43,537 nt of DNA from Peptococcaceae bacterium (GTDB lineage Bacteria > Bacillota > Desulfitobacteriia > Desulfitobacteriales > Syntrophobotulaceae). The translations under genes and the position numbers were made by a program. Below, piece by piece: positions 11,055-25,856 of the stretch; the stretch's first letter is position 1, and each line of letters opens with the position of its first letter. Location: assembly GCA_012839895.1 (NCBI GenBank), contig DUML01000104.1, forward strand, positions 1 through 43,537, read 5' to 3'. The notes below the pieces were generated by a model that had not been told where the DNA came from, ran no database searches, and worked only from the letters and a program-made list of their open reading frames with translations.

Positions 11055-11083
11055 CAGATTACAAGCATGGATGCTAATTGCTA

Positions 11084-11193
11084 ATCCACCTCCTTTTCAA
11101 TACGGAAGGCATATTCATTTCTGAACATACCCGAGAGCCTAGGCTCTGGCTGACTGCCATAGAACAATCTTTAGGCTGTGTCAGCTCGGAGAA
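11084..11193 (-). ncRNA. Molybdenum cofactor (Moco/Tuco) riboswitch aptamer
   Basis: The minus strand carries, in order, the conserved elements of the Moco RNA motif: CTCCGAGC (11191-11184), the paired AGCCTAGGCT block with GAGCCTAGGCTCTCGGG (11147-11131 region), GAATATGCC, TTCCG, and the closing GAAAAGGAGGTGG (11097-11085). CTCCGAGC pairs with the GCTCTCGGG side in the usual way. The motif senses molybdenum or tungsten cofactor and normally sits before molybdate transport or cofactor synthesis genes; here it precedes modABC. The terminator that follows suggests repression when cofactor is plentiful, but the direction of control is inferred. Confidence 0.88.
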
Positions 11194-11196
11194 AAA

Positions 11197-11226
11197 GTAT
11201 GAAGTTCTAGAAGGTATGAAGTTCTA
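11197..11226. repeat. 13-base direct repeat upstream of the Moco riboswitch
   Basis: GTATGAAGTTCTA occurs at 11197-11209 and again at 11214-11226. It sits at the 5' edge of the riboswitch, between aptamer and the expected promoter, so it could be a binding site for the divergent TOBE regulator. No experimentally known consensus is matched. Confidence 0.5.
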
Positions 11227-16725: not shown

Positions 16726-18261
16726 CTACATAATATTACTCTTTCCCATAAGGTATTTATCTACTTCTCGAGCGGCCAGTTTGCCTTCCTGCAGGGCCCA
16801 GACCACAAGGCTCTGGCCTCGGCGGGCGTCTCCTGCAACGAAGACTTTTTCCACATTGGTTTGGTATTCTGCAGCTTTGATGTTGCTGCGGATATCCCGC
16901 TCCAGTTTCAATTGATTGGACAGGGTGTCTTCAGGGCCGAGGAAGCCCATGGCTAAAAGGACCAGATCGGCTTTCCAGACTTTTTCTGTGCCGGGTATTT
17001 CTTGGGGAACCATTCTTCCTTGGGAATCTTTGATCCAGTTGATCTCTACAGTGTAGACTTCTTTGACCTCGCCTTTTTCATTGCCCACAATCTTTTTCGT
17101 ATTAATGCAATAATGGCGTGGATCTTGGCCATAGAAAAAGATGGCTTCTTCCTGGCCGTAGTCAACCTTTAGCTTGATGGGCCATTCGGGCCAAGGATTG
17201 GTGGCTTTATTACGCTTTGCCGGTGGTTTGGGCATGATTTCAAATTGGTGGACGCTTTTGCAGCCATGGCGAAGGGCTGTAGCCACACAGTCCGTCCCTG
17301 TGTCTCCCCCGCCGATGATAATGACGTGTTTGTCTTTGGCGCTAATAATGCCTTCCAATCCAGAATTTGTTTTGCATTCCACCCTATGGCCCGCCGGATC
17401 TGTGTTCAGCATTCTATCCAGCTTTCCTTCCAGCAGGCATTTAGTATTAGCCTTCAGGAAATCTACTGCATAGTAAATCCCTTTAAGCTGATTGCCTTCA
17501 ACATTTATTCCCCTGGCTTTGGTAGAGCCGATGCACAGAACTACGGCATCGTGTTTTGCCAGAAGCTCTTCTGCGGGGATATCCACTCCTACTTCCGTAT
17601 TCAATACAAATTTGATTCCGGAATCCTGTAAAAGCTTTATCCGCCGCTCAACAACCTTTTTATCCAACTTCATGTTGGGTATTCCATACATCAAGAGTCC
17701 GCCTGGGCGATCGGCCCGTTCATAAACTGTGACTTCATGGCCTACCGCAGCCAGGTAATAGGCCGCGGACAGCCCTGCCGGGCCCGAGCCCACTACAGCC
17801 ACTTTTTTGCCGGTGCTTTTACCTTTTTTCGGTGTTACCCACCCTTCCGCAAAGGCTTTTTCAATTATTTCGTATTCAATGGAGTTAATGGTTACAGGCT
17901 TCAAAATATGCCCTTCCGTGCAGGCACCCTCACAGGGAGCCGGACAGACCCGGGAAGTGAACTCCGGGAAAGGATTGGTCCGGCTCAAACGTTTATAGGC
18001 TTCTTCCCACTGCCCCTTGTATACCAGGTAATTCCACTCCGGAATCAAATTGTGCAAAGGACAGCCGGAGACCATGCCTTTAAGCAAAACTCCGCCTTGA
18101 CAAAAGGGGACTCCACAGTTCATGCAGCGTTCTCCCTGGGTCCTGATCACTTCCGGCCTGCGGGGAAGCCTCATCTCCTGCCAATCCTGCAGACGCTCCT
18201 GAGGTGGGCGTTTCTGTGGTTCAATGCGCTTATATTCCAAAAAAGCTGTTGCTTTACCCAT
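16726..18261 (-). CDS. gltD: Glutamate synthase small subunit GltD
   Basis: A 511-residue FAD/NADPH-binding iron-sulfur protein. The N-terminal domain has cluster cysteines in [18 protein letters not shown] and [13 protein letters not shown]. Two nucleotide-binding folds follow: [17 protein letters not shown] (FAD) and [18 protein letters not shown] (NADPH), with the ending [18 protein letters not shown] typical of the family. It passes electrons from NADPH to the large subunit for conversion of 2-oxoglutarate and glutamine to two glutamates. The ATG at 18261 follows GGGGGGAT, 15 bases after gltB. Confidence 0.95.
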
Positions 18262-18276
18262 TTATATCCCCCCTGT

Positions 18277-21200
18277 CTATTTCGCAGCTTCTGAACTTTT
18301 GAAGTTTTCTTCAAAGGCCACCAGCAGAGCTTCCTCTCCGGTATAACCAATTTTATGAGCTTTTTCGATGTTGGCCAGCATCCGTTTGTAATCCTTAGGA
18401 ATTATCTTCGTAAATCTTGAGGCATAGCTTTCCCAATTCGCAAGAATTCGTTTGCCTAAAGGACTCTGGGTATATTCCACATGTTTTTGAATCATGGCTT
18501 TTACTTCATTAAGCTCTACGGCCGATTGGATTTCCTCCAACAGAACCATGGCTTTATTGCAGTATTTTTCATCAAAGTCCAGGATATAAGCGATACCGCC
18601 GGACATTCCTGCTGCAAAGTTACGGCCGGTTTTACCCAGGATGACCACTTTGCCGCCGGTCATATATTCACAGCCGTGATCTCCTACGCCTTCCACCACT
18701 GCCTTGACGCCGCTGTTGCGGACACAGAACCTCTCTCCGGCAATTCCGTTGATATAAGCCTCACCGGAGGTGGCACCGTAGAAAGCTACATTGCCTATCA
18801 GGATATTTTCTTCGGGAACAAAGTCTGCTTCTTTCGGCGGATAAACTATGATCTTGCCACCGGAAAGACCTTTGCCCAGATAATCGTTAGCGTCTCCTTC
18901 AAGTTCCAAGGTTAGCCCTTGGGGAATGAAAGCCCCAAAGCTTTGACCGGCTGAACCTACGAAAGAAAGTTTTATCGTATCCTCCGGCAGACCCTGTTCT
19001 CCATAACGTTTGGTTATTTCACTGCCCACAATGGTTCCTACTACTCTATCGGTATTGTCAATTTTTAATTTGGCGCGGATAGGCTTTTTATTTTCCAAGG
19101 CAGGCCGGCAAATGCGCAGCAGTTTCTTCATATCCAAAGACTCTTCCAGCATGTGTTTCTGCGGTTGCGTGTTATACCGTCCGACATCGGCGCCGGCATA
19201 GGGCTGGTAAAGAATTGGAGACAAATCAAGTTTACAGGCTTTCCAATTTTTAATGTTCTCTTTGGTTTTCAGGCGGTCAGTGCGGCCAACCATTTCGTTG
19301 ACCGTCCTAAAACCTAACTTAGCCATGATCTCCCGCATTTCCTGAGCGATGAAACGCATCAAGTTTTCCACATACTCAGGTTTGCCGGTAAAGTTCTTCC
19401 TGAGTTCTTTATTCTGGGTGGCTATACCGACAGGGCAAGTGTTCAAATCGCAAACCCGCATCATCACACAACCCAGAGCAATCAGCGGGGTAGTGGCAAA
19501 ACCGAATTCTTCGGCGCCGAGCATGGCAGCAATGACCACATCTCTTCCGGTTAGCAGTTTGCCGTCCGTTTCCAGAATAACCCTGTCTCTTAGTCTATTC
19601 AGCACCAAGGTTTGATGGGTTTCCGCCAGCCCAAGTTCCCAAGGCAGACCAGCATTGCGGATACTGGTACGAGGCGAAGCTCCCGTTCCTCCGTCATAGC
19701 CGCTAATCAAGATAACATCGGCTTTACCTTTAGCCACTCCGGCAGCAATGGTGCCGACTCCGACTTCTGAGACTAGCTTAACGTTGATTCGTGCCTCCCG
19801 GTTCGCATTTTTTAAATCGTGAATCAGTTCGGCCAAGTCTTCGATGGAGTAAATATCATGGTGAGGCGGAGGGGAAATCAATTCCACACCGGGAGTAGAG
19901 TGACGGGTTTTAGCAATCCAAGGATAAACCTTACTGCCCGGCAATTGCCCGCCTTCCCCGGGTTTTGCCCCCTGGGCCATTTTAATTTGTATCTCTTTGG
20001 CGTTGACCAGATAATTGCTGGTAACCCCAAAGCGTCCCGAAGCAACTTGTTTAATCGCGCTGCTTTTGCTGTCGCCTTTACACAAGGTATATGCAGGATG
20101 TTTTTCATCTTGGAGCAATGGTTTGTAGCGTTCAGGATCTTCTCCACCCTCGCCGCTGTTGCTTTTGCCGCCAAGCCGGTTCATCGCAACGGCCAGACAT
20201 TCATGGGCCTCTTTGCTGATTGAACCATAGGACATGGCTCCGGTTTTAAACCGTTTCACAATGGACTCCACCGGCTCCACTTCTTCAATTGGAATCGTGT
20301 CCCCGGGATTGTATTTAAAATCCAACAAATGTCTTAAGGTAAAAATCTTTTCTTCATTAATTTTACGGGAGTACTCTTTATAGACCGAATAGTCACCTTC
20401 CCGGCAAGCTTTTTGCAACAAATAGATTGTCTCGGGATTGTAAAGGTGCTTCTCCCCGCCTTCTTTGCATTGGAAAAAGCCGCCTACTTCCAAAGTATCC
20501 GTATGAAGGCCGTCCCCAAAGGCGCTTTCATGGCGCATTTGATTTTCCACGGCTATCTCCCTAAGCCCGATTCCTTCGATACGAGAAGGGGTCTTGGTGA
20601 AATACTTGTCGATCAATTCGCTGCTTAAACCCACTGCTTCGAAGATCTGGGCCCCATGATAACTGCGCATGGTGGAAATGCCCATTTTGGTCAGGACCTT
20701 AAGCATGCCTTTAACGGAAGCTTTGATAAAGTTCTTAATAGCTTCCTGGGCGTTAAGTCCTTCCAGCATATTCCGCTCTGCCAAATCTTCAATGGTTTCA
20801 TAGGCCAGATAAGGATTAATAGCCGTTACCCCATAGCCCACCAAAGTGCTGAAATGGTGAACTTCTCGGGGCTCTCCCGATTCCAGCACGATGCCGACAT
20901 TAGTGCGGATCTCCCGCCGAATCAGGTGGTGATGAAGGCCTGAAGAAGCAAGCAGTGCCGGAATGGCCGTCTTTTCCTTATCCACCCCGCGATCGGACAA
21001 AACTAAAATATTGGCTCCTTCGCTGATAGCTTTATCAGCTTCTCGGAAAAGATTTTCCAAAGCTCGTTCCATAGCATTTGCTCCGCCGGCTACAGGATAG
21101 AGCAGTGACAAAGTTACAGCTTTAAACTTTTCATTGTTTAGTCCTTTGATGACTTCCAGTTGTTCGTTGGTCAGTATCGGATGCTCCAGGAAAAGGGCCG

Positions 21201-22917
21201 CGGTATTTTCCTGGTTCGGGTTCAGCAAATTGCCGGAATTGCCTAGGAGCATATTGCAGGAAGTAATAATCTCTTCCCGGATCCCGTCAATAGGAGGATT
21301 GGTGACCTGAGCAAAGAGTTGCTTGAAGTAGAGATAGAGCATCTGGGGCTTTTCCGAAAGCACGGCCAGCGGAACATCCATGCCCATAGCCCCTACCGGA
21401 TCTGCTCCTTCCACCGCCATGGGTATGACAGTCTTGCTGAGATCTTCAAATGTATAGCCAAAAGCTTTTTGCTGGCGTATAAGGTCTTCTTTGCTTCTCC
21501 CTTGAGTTGTTTTCCTCTTTTCCTGCTCTTTTTCTTGTGTTTTCACTTTGGCCATAAGTTTATCCAGCTTGACAATATGCTTTTTGACCCACTCGTCATA
21601 GGGGTTCTCCCTGGCTACGCTTCTCTTTAACTCCTCATCGGAAATAATTCTCTGGGCTTGGGTGTCGATGAGCAGCATTTTTCCAGGCTCCAGGCGGCCT
21701 TTATACTTGATTTTGTCCGGTTTAATGTCCATGACCCCTACTTCGGAAGACAGAATAACTTTGTCGTCCTTGGTAATATAGTAACGGGAGGGACGCAGGC
21801 CGTTGCGGTCCAGCACCGCTCCGATCACGACACCGTCGGTAAAAGCTACGGCCGCCGGGCCGTCCCAGGGCTCCATCAAAAAGTTGCTAAACTCATAAAA
21901 GTCCCTTTTTTCTTTATCCATGAACTCATGTTTTTCCCAAGGTTCAGGAATCATCATCATCATGGCATGAGGCAGGGATCTGCCGGTCAGATGCAGAAAT
22001 TCCAGGCAGTTATCGAACATGGCGGAGTCACTGCCGGCTTCATCGATTATCGGAAAAACCTTAGAGATATCGTCAAAGAGTTCCGAAGCAAGGGTTTTCT
22101 GGCGGGCCCGCATCCAGTTCACATTACCGCGGATAGTGTTGATTTCCCCGTTATGAATGATATAGCGATTGGGATGAGCTCTCTCCCAACTCGGGAAAGT
22201 GTTGGTGCTGAAGCGCGAGTGGACCATGGCTAAAGCCGAAACAAAATCCAAATCGGACAAATCCAAATAGAAGTTGCGCAGTTGTTCGGCTGTCAGCATA
22301 CCTTTATAAACTATGGTTTTGGCGGAAAGGCTGGCCACATAAAATGTGCCGCCTTTGTCCTCACACATCGGAATAATGGTTTTCTCAGCCCGTTTACGAA
22401 TTACATACAGTTTCCTTTCGAAATCCATGATATCTTTGATTTTCGGATTCTTTGCAATGAAGACCTGAATAAAATGGGGCATTACGGCTTTGGCGCTTTC
22501 CCCAATGGTGCTTTTATCAATGGGCACTTCCCGCCAACCTAAAATCCTTTGTCCTTCTTCTTCTACGATTTTTTCCAAAGTCTCCATTTGGACTTTGCGA
22601 AAATCCTCGTAACGATGTGCAAAGATCATGCCCACACCGTAATTGCCTTTTTCCGGCAACTCAAAGCCCAGCACCGCACATTCCCGTTTGAAGAAGTCAT
22701 GGGGAATCTGCACCAAGATTCCGGCTCCGTCTCCGGTGTTCTCATCCGCTCCCTTGGCACCTCTATGGCTTAAGTTTTCTAAAACGGTTAAAGCTTCACC
22801 GATTATCTCATGGGATTTTTGTCCTTTGATATTGACTACAAATCCTATACCACAGGCATCATGTTCAAAAGCTGGATCATATAGTCCCTGTTTGTCTGGT
22901 AGTCCAAATTTTAACAT
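18277..22917 (-). CDS. gltB: Glutamate synthase large subunit GltB
   Basis: A 1546-residue enzyme. Cys22 in HDACGIGFV is the N-terminal nucleophile of the glutaminase domain and should be exposed after cleavage of a short propeptide. The central domain and FMN-binding synthase domain follow ([21 protein letters not shown] split over 19780-19990; [18 protein letters not shown]). The 3Fe-4S cysteines are in [15 protein letters not shown], and the C-terminal beta-helix ends in [18 protein letters not shown]. The frame opens with a GTG at 22926, but AAAGGG lies 8 bases before the ATG at 22917, which is taken as the start. The leader carries a terminator-type hairpin. Confidence 0.95.
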
Positions 22918-22962
22918 TTTCATCACCCTTTGATTTTTACTTAACGAATTTAACGGACAATG

Positions 22963-23025
22963 AAAAAGCGCTCTAATAAGACTTGTACTTTCTTAAGTAC
23001 AGGTCTTTTAGAGCGCCATTGCTCC
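22963..23025 (-). promoter_or_regulatory. gltB leader attenuator with alternative hairpin
   Basis: On the minus strand GCGCTCTAAAAGAC (from 23016) pairs with the complementary arm ending in TTAGAGCGC (22968), an almost perfect stem of more than 20 pairs with a short loop, followed by TTTTT: an intrinsic terminator. It lies between the gltB promoter and gene. An upstream GGAGC can instead pair with the same GCTCT, giving a small hairpin with the six-base loop AATGGC (23025-23010). The two structures share GCTC and exclude each other, as in transcription attenuation. The hexaloop has A at position 1 and G at position 4, as described for targets of ANTAR antiterminators. Confidence 0.7.
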
Positions 23026-23057
23026 ACAATATTATTTTACTCAAAAGTGTCTATTCT

Positions 23058-23087
23058 AGATTAGCATATTCTGAATTGTCATGTCAA
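23058..23087 (-). promoter_or_regulatory. Promoter of gltBD
   Basis: Minus-strand TTGACA (23087-23082), an 18-base spacer and an extended -10 TGCTAATCT (23066-23058). It places the transcription start near 23050, upstream of the attenuator, so gltBD has its own promoter apart from ppdK. Confidence 0.7.
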
Positions 23088-23116
23088 TAGTCAGCGAAAA
23101 GGTCTGTTATTGTTCT

Positions 23117-23129
23117 GTGATATTATCAC
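23117..23129. promoter_or_regulatory. 13-base palindrome between ppdK and the gltB promoter
   Basis: GTGATA-T-TATCAC is a perfect inverted repeat centred about 35 bases upstream of the gltB -35 box. It is flanked by two copies of GAAAAGGTC (near 23096 and 23154). The position suits a regulator site for gltBD; it is unlike the B. subtilis GltC site, and no protein can be named. Confidence 0.4.
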
Positions 23130-23189
23130 CATAAAAATGGTCTGAGAAAAGGTCACCCTTGAGAACTTTTGTTTATGCTATTTTAAGTC

Positions 23190-25856
23190 TTACTTCAATT
23201 GGTTTTTGTTATTAATAGCGGCCTGGGCGGCGGCCAGCCGGGCTACCGGCACTCGGAAAGGTGAGCAGGAAACATAGTCAAAACCTATTTCCTGGCAAAA
23301 TCCAATCGAAGATGGTTCTCCCCCATGCTCGCCGCAGATGCCGAACTTCAACTGCGGGTTAGTTTTACGGCCTAGCTCCACGCAAATCTTCATGATTTTG
23401 CCGACTCCCTTTCTATCCAAGACAGCAAAGGGATTTTCTTCGAGGATTTGATTATTGGTATAAACCGGCAGGAACTTACCTTCGGCATCATCCCTGGAGA
23501 AACCAAAAACAGTTTGCGTTAGATCGTTGGTACCAAAGGAGAAGAAATCGGAATGGGGCGCAATCTCATCTGCCGTAAGAGCGGCTCTGGGCATTTCAAT
23601 CATTGTACCCACCTGATAAGGAATAGTTACCCCCGTAGCCGCCATAACCTCCTCGGCTATTTGCACTGTTTGCCGCCGTAAAATCTCCAGTTCCTTGGCA
23701 TGAATCACCAGGGGGATTTTAACTTTAGGATTGACATCGTATCCTTCCTGAATTAATCTGGCTGCGGCCTGGAAAATAGCTCTAGCCTGCATAGCATAGA
23801 TCTCCGGATAGGTAATGCCCAAACGGCAGCCCCTGTGTCCAAGCATAGGGTTCATTTCTTTAAGGGCTCGGACTTTTTTCAGGAGGTTTTCTTTTGCATA
23901 GATTTCTTCCTGGACTTTTCTGTCTTCCTGATCAGCCGCTAGTTTTAGGGTCAAAATATCTTCAATTAATTCCTCCGCGTCAGGGAGAAATTCATGCAAA
24001 GGCGGATCCAAAAGCCTGATGGTCACCGGCAGCCCCTGCATAGCTTTAAAGATACCGTAGAAATCTTCTTCCTGCATAGGCAAAAGCTCAGCCAGGGCTG
24101 CTTCACGCTCTTCGAGGGTTTGAGCCAAAATCATCTTTTGAACAATCGGCAAACGGGCGGGATCCATAAACATGTGTTCAGTCCGGCATAACCCGATACC
24201 TTCAGCGCCAAATTCCCGGGCTTTGGCGGCATCCGCCGGAGTATCGGCATTAGCAAGGACTTTAAGCGTCCTCATTTCATCAGCCCACTTTAGAATAGTT
24301 TGGAACTCAGCGCTTAAATCGGGATCCTTCATGGGGACAAGCCCTTTTATTACCCGGCCGGTCCCTCCGTCAATGGTGATTTCCGAGCCTTTCGGGTATT
24401 CAATACCGTCAACTACCATTTTTTCATCCATATAATTGATTTTTAAGGCTTCACAGCCGCAAACCGCAGCCTTACCCATATGTCTGGCCACCACTGCAGC
24501 ATGGCTGGTCATGCCCCCTCTGCTGGTCAGGATTCCTTGGGCGGCAAGGACTCCGTGGATATCATCAGGAGTGGTCTCCGTGCGAACTAAGATCACTTTT
24601 TCCCCCGCTTGCCCTAATTTTTCCGCTTCATCAGCATCAAACACTATTTTGCCGGAAGCTGCTCCGGGGGAAGCCGGCAAACCTGTGGCAATTACATCCA
24701 AGGTGGCATTCTCATCAATGCGGCGGTGGAGAAGTTGGCTTAATTGATGAGGATTAATTCTCCGTACTGCTTCTTCTTTGCTAATCAGTCCTTCCCGGCA
24801 TAACTCCACAGCGATCCGCACAGCCGCTGAAACCGTACATTTGCCATTACGGGTTTGGAGAATATAAAGTTTTCCCTTTTCTATGGTAAATTCAATATCC
24901 TGCATATCACGGTAATGCTGTTCCAAGCTGGCTGCAATCTGAGCAAACTCCTTGTACAGCTCTGGGTTTTCCTCTTCCAAGCTTTTGATGGGAAGAGGAG
25001 TGCGAATTCCGGCTACCACATCTTCTCCCTGGGCATTCATTAGATATTCGCCATATAGAGCCTTTTCCCCGGTTGACGGGTTGCGGGTAAAAGCGACTCC
25101 CGTGCCTGAATCCTTACCCATATTGCCAAAAACCATGCATTGCACATTGACTGCGGTACCGATATCATCCGGGATATTATTGACCCGGCGGTAAACAATT
25201 GCTCTTTGATTATTCCAAGATTTAAAAACAGCGGTAATGGCTTCTTTAAGCTGTTCATAAGGATTAACCGGGAAAACATTACCGGTTTGTTCATAGACAA
25301 TATTTTTGAATCTTTTCACAAGTTCTTTTAAACTATCAGTGTTAAGTTCGGCATCATATTTTACACCTTGCCGCTCTTTGATTTCTTCTAAAACGCTTTC
25401 AAATTTATAGCTGTCGATATTTAAAACCACATCACCGAACATTTGGATAAAGCGGCGATAGCAGTCGTAGGCAAATCTTTCATCACCGGTGGCTTTGCTC
25501 AAACCTACCGTAGTATCATCATTCAAGCCAAGATTAAGGATAGTATCCATCATCCCCGGCATAGAAATTTTAGCTCCGGAACGAACCGAAACAAGCAAAG
25601 GGTTGTCTGGATCCCCAAATTTTTTGCCGCTCTTTTTTTCCACATCCTGAACAGCTGCTAAGACCTGCTCCCAAAGCCCTTCCGGAAAAATTTCCCCATT
25701 GGCGTAATATTCCCGGCAGGCTTCGGTGGTCACCGTAAAACCTTGGGGGACACTGAGCCCTATATTAGTCATCTCCGCCAGGTTAGCGCCTTTGCCCCCT
25801 AGGAGGTCACGCATGGCTGAGTTACCTTCTCTAAATAAGTAAACATATTTTTTCAT
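23190..25856 (-). CDS. ppdK: Pyruvate, phosphate dikinase
   Basis: An 888-residue enzyme interconverting pyruvate + ATP + phosphate and PEP + AMP + pyrophosphate. The N-terminal ATP-grasp domain begins LLGGKGANLAEMTNIG. The swivelling domain has the catalytic His in LTSRGGMTSHAAVVARHMGK with the regulatory Thr two residues before it. The PEP/pyruvate TIM barrel shows GIGLCRTEHMF, MLGHRGCRLGI, and the catalytic Cys in FGICGEHGGEP near the C-terminus. Length fits the family. The gene follows its regulatory protein by 6 bases, so the pair is an operon. In anaerobes the enzyme may run in either direction. Confidence 0.96.
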   Translation of the reverse strand: MKKYVYLFREGNSAMRDLLGGKGANLAEMTNIGLSVPQGFTVTTEACREYYANGEIFPEGLWEQVLAAVQDVEKKSGKKFGDPDNPLLVSVRSGAKISMPGMMDTILNLGLNDDTTVGLSKATGDERFAYDCYRRFIQMFGDVVLNIDSYKFESVLEEIKERQGVKYDAELNTDSLKELVKRFKNIVYEQTGNVFPVNPYEQLKEAITAVFKSWNNQRAIVYRRVNNIPDDIGTAVNVQCMVFGNMGKDSGTGVAFTRNPSTGEKALYGEYLMNAQGEDVVAGIRTPLPIKSLEEENPELYKEFAQIAASLEQHYRDMQDIEFTIEKGKLYILQTRNGKCTVSAAVRIAVELCREGLISKEEAVRRINPHQLSQLLHRRIDENATLDVIATGLPASPGAASGKIVFDADEAEKLGQAGEKVILVRTETTPDDIHGVLAAQGILTSRGGMTSHAAVVARHMGKAAVCGCEALKINYMDEKMVVDGIEYPKGSEITIDGGTGRVIKGLVPMKDPDLSAEFQTILKWADEMRTLKVLANADTPADAAKAREFGAEGIGLCRTEHMFMDPARLPIVQKMILAQTLEEREAALAELLPMQEEDFYGIFKAMQGLPVTIRLLDPPLHEFLPDAEELIEDILTLKLAADQEDRKVQEEIYAKENLLKKVRALKEMNPMLGHRGCRLGITYPEIYAMQARAIFQAAARLIQEGYDVNPKVKIPLVIHAKELEILRRQTVQIAEEVMAATGVTIPYQVGTMIEMPRAALTADEIAPHSDFFSFGTNDLTQTVFGFSRDDAEGKFLPVYTNNQILEENPFAVLDRKGVGKIMKICVELGRKTNPQLKFGICGEHGGEPSSIGFCQEIGFDYVSCSPFRVPVARLAAAQAAINNKNQLK

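Follow-up and report, generated by a model that had tools for sequence, protein, structure and literature searches.

Does the leader of a glutamate synthase gene carry an attenuator read by an ANTAR-domain antiterminator, even though only one of the two hairpins usual in such RNAs is apparent? The question is raised by a 43,537-nucleotide stretch of DNA from a Peptococcaceae bacterium, hereafter the window, in which a terminator ahead of gltB had been proposed to share an arm with an upstream hairpin with an AATGGC hexaloop. Sequence and folding bear out this arrangement, and a genome from another genus of the same family (G013) was used for comparison. The features of the locus are as follows.

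23058 to 23087, minus strand: candidate gltB promoter TTGACA-18-TAATCT, read from the sequence, with the -10 hexamer and flank kept in G013
23009 to 23026, minus strand: antiterminator hairpin TGGAGC-AATGGC-GCTCTA, from sequence, folding and family covariation
22963 to 23017, minus strand: intrinsic terminator with its T run at 22967-22963, its 5' arm including the 3' arm of the hairpin
22925 to 22930, minus strand: likely ribosome binding site AAGGGT, read from the sequence, before the ATG at 22917
18277 to 22917, minus strand: gltB, glutamate synthase large subunit, with all four Pfam domains
16726 to 18261, minus strand: gltA-like small subunit with Fer4_20 and pyridine nucleotide oxidoreductase domains

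A transcription attenuator in the gltB leader

The attenuator lies between the stop of ppdK at 23190, on the same strand, and the gltB ATG at 22917; the gltA-like gene is probably in one operon with gltB. The hairpin is composed of a 5' arm TGGAGC (23026-23021), a hexaloop AATGGC (23020-23015) with A at position 1 and G at position 4 (A1/G4), and a 3' arm GCTCTA (23014-23009), giving a stem of six pairs including one G-U. Folded alone, it reaches -7.4 kcal/mol with a z score of -1.35, which is ordinary for its composition when compared with shuffles. The terminator reads GGCGCTCTAAAAGAC...GTCTTATTAGAGCGC followed by TTTTT (23017-22963), and for the segment 22957-23025 the folding energy is -31.7 kcal/mol (z -7.0), a value reached by 0 of 200 shuffles, while a generic terminator scan did not pick up this terminator. 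As the terminator is far stabler and should win unaided, the hairpin would need help to act as an antiterminator. The candidate -10 box is separated from the hairpin by 31 nt, and an alternative promoter call is ATGACA-18-TAGAAT. With the hairpin and its overlap with the terminator confirmed, the gltB leader is a real transcription attenuator.

Loss of the hairpin from relatives that conserve the terminator had been named as evidence against the ANTAR reading. G013 keeps the gltB hairpin, the terminator and the candidate promoter region; its stem is identical, a single loop change converts AAT to AAA, and its promoter has TTGCAA at -35 with the -10 hexamer and flank as in the window. Among the ten family genomes with a gltB match, the hairpin was present in both genomes with a glnA-linked ANTAR gene versus none of the eight without it (Fisher p 0.022).

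An Rfam search at the gltB site returned no family at its gathering score. The best hit, rli56 (24.5 bits against 47, E 0.061), was below threshold and was taken as chance. Rfam also gave no ANTAR-like family on five loci including a clear dual-hairpin eutP leader (L266), so its negatives carry no weight here. Elsewhere in the window, a molybdenum cofactor riboswitch (11074-11203, minus strand, 74.5 bits) precedes genes for a solute-binding protein, a permease and an ABC ATPase resembling a modABC transporter.

An ANTAR protein encoded behind glnA

Two ANTAR proteins of the genome score above the Pfam cut-off, and the initial annotation's reading therefore escapes the refutation that a lack of such proteins would have brought. 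The first (L003) has a full receiver and adjoins genes for a PdtaS-like kinase and a transporter. The second (L004:7615-7043), 190 residues long, has a degenerate receiver and matches PF03861 at 59.4 bits against a cut-off of 27.3. Its gene lies directly 3' of glnA, encoding a type I glutamine synthetase, and 5' of carAB, with a divergent type III glutamine synthetase gene and an ammonium transporter nearby. We call this protein NitR-type, borrowing the name of a C. saccharobutylicum regulator (PMC6316151) of which it is a putative counterpart. The ANTAR gene adjoins glnA in 27 of 27 loci from the window genome and from relatives down to E 9e-22 (L016-L042), and does not in three weaker-matching loci (L043-L045).

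In the receiver, the position that aligns with the phosphoacceptor Asp of Rv1626 is occupied by Asn in seven of seven close relatives, and by Asn or Ser across a 13-row set. Because of this replacement, the NitR-type protein is probably not switched by phosphorylation. The nearest solved structures by sequence are Rv1626, EutV, AmiR and NasR, and an AlphaFold monomer (mean pLDDT 92.3) places a long helix, residues 106-154, before the ANTAR bundle. The EutV residues touching the hexaloop, as given in the available text of PMC8934654, were mapped onto our alignment. By this mapping Lys149, Glu160, Met172 and Arg175 are kept and Tyr164 is His in close relatives; Arg142 and Arg168, which touch the loop in EutV, are replaced, which counts against the assignment.

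Similar leaders precede other nitrogen genes

A leader of the same kind had been anticipated at glnA and was found there, as well as at glnN, amtB, asnB and purA. Besides gltB, six further sites in the genome carry the hairpin-terminator overlap: TGAAC-AAAGGC-GTTCA before glnA-nitR-carAB, ACAGC-AAAGGT-GCTGT before glnN, ATGAAC-AAAGGC-GTTCAT before asnB, TGAAC-AAAGGC-GTTCA before purA and two sites at amtB. The first amtB site, AGC-AAAGGC-GCT, has a three-pair stem and was spotted by eye, having been missed by the scanner; the second, GAAC-GAAGGT-GTTC, has G rather than A at loop position 1. Stems vary among these leaders with pairing retained.

When the genome was ranked with a promoter-plus-hairpin model (R1), glnN, glnA, purA and asnB were at the top and gltB, which fits the pattern less tightly than glnN, glnA and purA, was at rank 32; ranks 5 to 31 were treated as chance and left uninspected. 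With gltB only 32nd in this ranking, the listed regulon is a minimum.

Two neighboring arrangements were also observed. The promoter of the purA attenuator, TTGACA-17-TAAGAT, falls within the final codons of asnB (L217, minus strand, about 13960-13840), so that purA could be controlled separately from asnB. Between the glnA attenuator and glnA is a 50-residue open reading frame (L004, minus strand, 9191-9042) with a match to the C-terminal tail of the split-GOGAT GXGXG subunit, which is found before glnA in many loci; it looks like a remnant left when GOGAT genes were deleted from an ancestral leader-GOGAT-glnA-nitR operon.

The hairpin is conserved across a family of leaders

A contig search with close relatives of the NitR-type protein gave 554 relatives, and 79 of their loci (1.19 Mb) were examined. 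These loci come from Clostridia and from metagenome-assembled genomes labelled Treponema, Fibrobacteria, Synergistaceae, Endomicrobia and Chitinispirillales. Close relatives in those labelled Treponema, Fibrobacteria, Chitinispirillales and Endomicrobia (L057, L059, L061, L063, L064, L067, L068 and L076) may reflect horizontal transfer between gut bacteria or errors in binning. In one further locus (L087, 18438-19588), a CRISPR array with CRISPR-DR2 repeats lies about 8 kb from the ANTAR gene.

An unbiased scan for all hairpins with loops of 4-8 nt whose 3' arm is also used by a terminator returned 237 matches in the 79 loci. Ninety of these had hexaloops, with A1/G4 in 60 and every other letter pair in five at most. 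The surroundings of 20 other ANTAR genes of the order, which gave A1/G4 in none of six terminator-overlapping hexaloops, were used as a negative control. Merging overlaps and adding six matches from the window, L004 and L006 gave 64 elements, L061 being counted once rather than as two overlapping registers; one dubious element (L053, loop AAGGAA) was left out of later counts, leaving 63. Nitrogen-metabolism genes follow 59 of the 64 elements and five have no assigned gene, an enrichment that is partly built in since the loci were picked for closeness to NitR. The targets are split GOGAT (GATase or GXGXG subunit; the operon was identified in L104) in 22 cases, glnN in 13, asnA in eight, glnA in four, amtB and asnB in three each, and gltB, carA and purA in two each.

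Pairing was also examined without imposing it. At least four complementary pairs flank the loop in 49 of 68 terminators that begin with an AAAGGC-type arm, whereas 2,000 shuffles averaged 16.6 and never exceeded 26, and several of the remaining 19 terminators look like true elements taken on the wrong strand. Across 57 distinct hairpins, changes on both sides of the stem were seen at four of five pairs. Stem covariation was 0.63 compared to 0.222 (sd 0.025) for shuffled alignments and no more than 0.22 when the partner was slid. The alignment used 57 of 59 distinct rows, omitting one with an N and one other, and most rows had been pre-selected for pairing, a choice that inflates the paired percentage to a greater degree than the covariation. 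In 63 of 63 leaders the terminator is more stable than the hairpin, and its 3' arm is complete a median of 53 nt after A1 of the loop.

A single hairpin rather than a pair

Canonical ANTAR target RNAs combine two hairpins, P1 and P2, separated by a short linker. The second hairpin expected from that model did not materialize at gltB: within 22880-23300 on the minus strand, the sole other A1/G4 hexaloop on at least three pairs lies inside ppdK. Across the family, an A1/G4 hexaloop within 25 nt upstream was found in three of 63 leaders compared to a shuffled mean of 2.75, and an extra A1/G4 hexaloop hairpin downstream in one of 64. The same code found both hairpins of the eutP leader in L266, GATTGCAC-AATGGA-GTGTGATC and ATAAGC-AAAGAA-GCTTGT with 7 nt between them, as a positive control; a dual hairpin was seen in one of 28 eutP-family loci within the stretch examined.

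Promoter positions agree with a single hairpin. Transcription usually starts about 7 nt behind the -10 box. A promoter score of at least 9 was obtained in 52 of 64 leaders, and in 47 of these 52 the hairpin begins 4-12 nt after the -10 box, which leaves no room for P1. Judging from the promoter consensus, transcripts in most leaders would begin at the hairpin or a few nucleotides from it, and this suggests that a 5'-terminal position of the hairpin can replace P1.

A cryptic P1 with an odd loop or weak stem, which would return the gltB leader to canonical dual-hairpin control, is nevertheless worth weighing, as every ANTAR attenuator described in the available text of PMC3369931 has two hairpins. 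At gltB there would be room of about 25 nt if transcription started 7 nt behind TAATCT, and two leaders of the order next to second-tier ANTAR genes (L132 and L135) have TTTA-ARTGTA-TAAA 14 and 11 nt upstream of the hairpin. However, these letters could be a -10 box, an A1/G4 P1 is missing at gltB in both the window and G013, and the chance-level frequency of P1 and the spacing from the -10 box in the family argue in the same direction. We therefore regard a cryptic P1 as unlikely. The L132 and L135 leaders (2611 and 2916, plus strand), whose upstream letters are a weak P1 or else a -10 box, may stand midway between the dual and the single form.

With P1 absent at gltB and at chance level in the family, the leader is not a canonical paired-hairpin ANTAR RNA. 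It has an A1/G4 hexaloop on a stem of at least three pairs, overlap with a terminator and an ANTAR gene in the genome, and it lacks the pair of P1 and P2 joined by a short linker. The initial ANTAR interpretation stands as far as hexaloop-terminator competition, ANTAR proteins and sister leaders are concerned, and is unsupported as far as it implied the canonical pair. The gltB attenuator most likely works like an ANTAR attenuator, outside the dual-hairpin family as defined.

The element co-occurs with the NitR-type protein

A strong NitR match is present in 16 of 259 genomes of the phylum. Elements were found through one of two exact 14-mers and then verified by their terminator, and such verified elements occur in nine of the 16 NitR genomes versus three of the 243 others (Fisher 1.9e-10, ignoring kinship of the genomes). 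The cut between strong and weak matches (E 2e-47 versus 1e-35) was set after viewing the list; counting all 35 NitR matches gives nine of 35 versus three of 224. Both exact 14-mers are absent from seven of the 16 NitR genomes. The three genomes with an element and no clear NitR are G197 (a weak fit, with other ANTAR-type matches), G223 (a broken partial NitR match, E 8e-5) and G291 (no match). The 14-mer CAGCAAAGGYGCTG alone is weak evidence, as 33 of the 41 matching phylum genomes have no terminator overlap.

In a class sample of 82 genomes, one 14-mer was present in five of nine clear-NitR genomes versus six of 73 others (p 0.0016). Terminators were confirmed by the scanner in four of the five NitR genomes; in the fifth (G018) the scanner failed and the terminator, with one additional A ahead of the T run, was seen by eye only. 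Five of the six matching genomes without clear NitR have no terminator, and the sixth (G016), which does have one, belongs to a genus that includes NitR-bearing species.

These data also bear on whether a real hairpin might have another reader, such as the second ANTAR protein or a different RNA-binding protein, or might mainly protect the mRNA from decay at its 5' end. The genome does encode a second ANTAR protein with a kinase, binding of NitR to the hairpin is putative, G223 and G291 have elements without NitR at E 0.001, and a 5'-terminal hairpin could stabilize an mRNA. However, the A1/G4 loop is an ANTAR signature, linkage and co-occurrence favor NitR, the element is missing around other ANTAR genes of the order, and a 5' guard would not require an arm in common with a terminator, which together make another reader or a guard quite improbable. 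Finally, a palindromic terminator with a chance complementary flank, perhaps that of ppdK, a gene in the same orientation that ends 173 nt upstream, would account for an isolated hairpin that is not exceptionally stable, but is very improbable given that G013 keeps the hairpin, loop and promoter region and has (by eye) a separate hairpin and T run ahead of the promoter, that the loop and stem tests in the family beat chance, and that six more such elements precede nitrogen genes in this genome.

Proposed mechanism and significance

The RNA anatomy, the set of leaders, and their linkage and co-occurrence with the protein were computed here, and on this basis we consider it probable that a NitR-type protein controls gltB and a nitrogen regulon by ANTAR antitermination on a single A1/G4 hexaloop, with the binding, the antitermination and the nitrogen signal inferred. 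RNA polymerase would make the AATGGC hairpin first. Unaided, the terminator would capture the 3' arm of the hairpin and transcription would end before gltBA. The NitR-type protein, made from the gene behind glnA, would grip the single hexaloop as it emerges from the polymerase; the gripped hairpin would stay closed and the polymerase would continue into gltBA, presumably under nitrogen shortage. The same element before glnA-nitR-carAB, glnN, amtB, asnB and purA would place these genes in a common regulon that, by the first of these positions, includes the operon of the regulator itself.

With somewhat less assurance, we favor a broader proposal in which these leaders represent a large and widespread ANTAR branch, where one hexaloop at the extreme 5' end replaces P1, the terminator follows about 50 nt later, the pseudo-receiver is free of phosphorylation, and the regulon covers ammonium assimilation and the regulator's own operon. 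If so, the two-hairpin requirement seen with EutV would not be inherent to ANTAR antitermination. Dozens of natural single-hexaloop attenuators and their likely regulator are now available, which makes the two-hairpin question testable in purified transcription with wild-type parts. A nitrogen regulon is also outlined in anaerobes, comprising GOGAT, glutamine synthetases I and III, asparagine synthetases, an ammonium transporter, carbamoyl phosphate synthase and adenylosuccinate synthetase. A literature search, in which subscription journals were thinly covered, found no account of single-hairpin ANTAR attenuators or of this regulon.

Comparison with known ANTAR systems

Like the C. saccharobutylicum NitR, for which Stutz et al. 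2007 is reportedly the cited source, the protein described here is an ANTAR protein tied to GS/GOGAT genes. In the available account, that NitR is said to induce GS/GOGAT genes by antitermination under nitrogen limitation (PMC6316151). The accessible text of Ramesh et al. 2012 describes dual-hairpin target RNAs for EutV at eut, NasR at nasF and AmiR at amiE, and dual-hairpin candidates at D. reducens glutamate synthase genes (PMC3369931). The gltB family shares with the EutV, NasR and AmiR targets the A1/G4 hexaloop, the overlap of hairpin and terminator, the ANTAR protein and the nitrogen genes; unlike them, it lacks P1 and the linker, and in most members the hairpin is 5'-terminal. Further parts of the known work appear in the available portions of PMC8164766, PMC5821096 and PMC4676874.

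The regulators can be compared in the same way. Unlike the EutV type, with its phosphorylated receiver, the NitR-type protein has a pseudo-receiver. In this it resembles AmiR, in which a pseudo-receiver is joined to ANTAR free of phosphorylation (PDB 1qo0; as summarized in PMC8934654), and both have His at the G4-stacking position in the alignment. AmiR is controlled by its partner AmiC, whereas no such partner was seen here for the NitR-type protein.

The accessible text of Walshe et al. 2022 reports that the EutV dimer contacts one hexaloop and defines the minimal motif anew as one hexaloop, asks why both hairpins are needed and urges searches for single-hexaloop targets (PMC8934654). According to these authors, antitermination requires the dimer to engage the two hexaloops one after the other, and they expect single-hexaloop sites solely in settings where a moving polymerase imposes no time limit (PMC8934654). 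NasR is described as binding an isolated P2 at about 12 uM (PMC7496416, available text). In contrast to the expectation of Walshe et al., the single hexaloops identified here sit on terminators.
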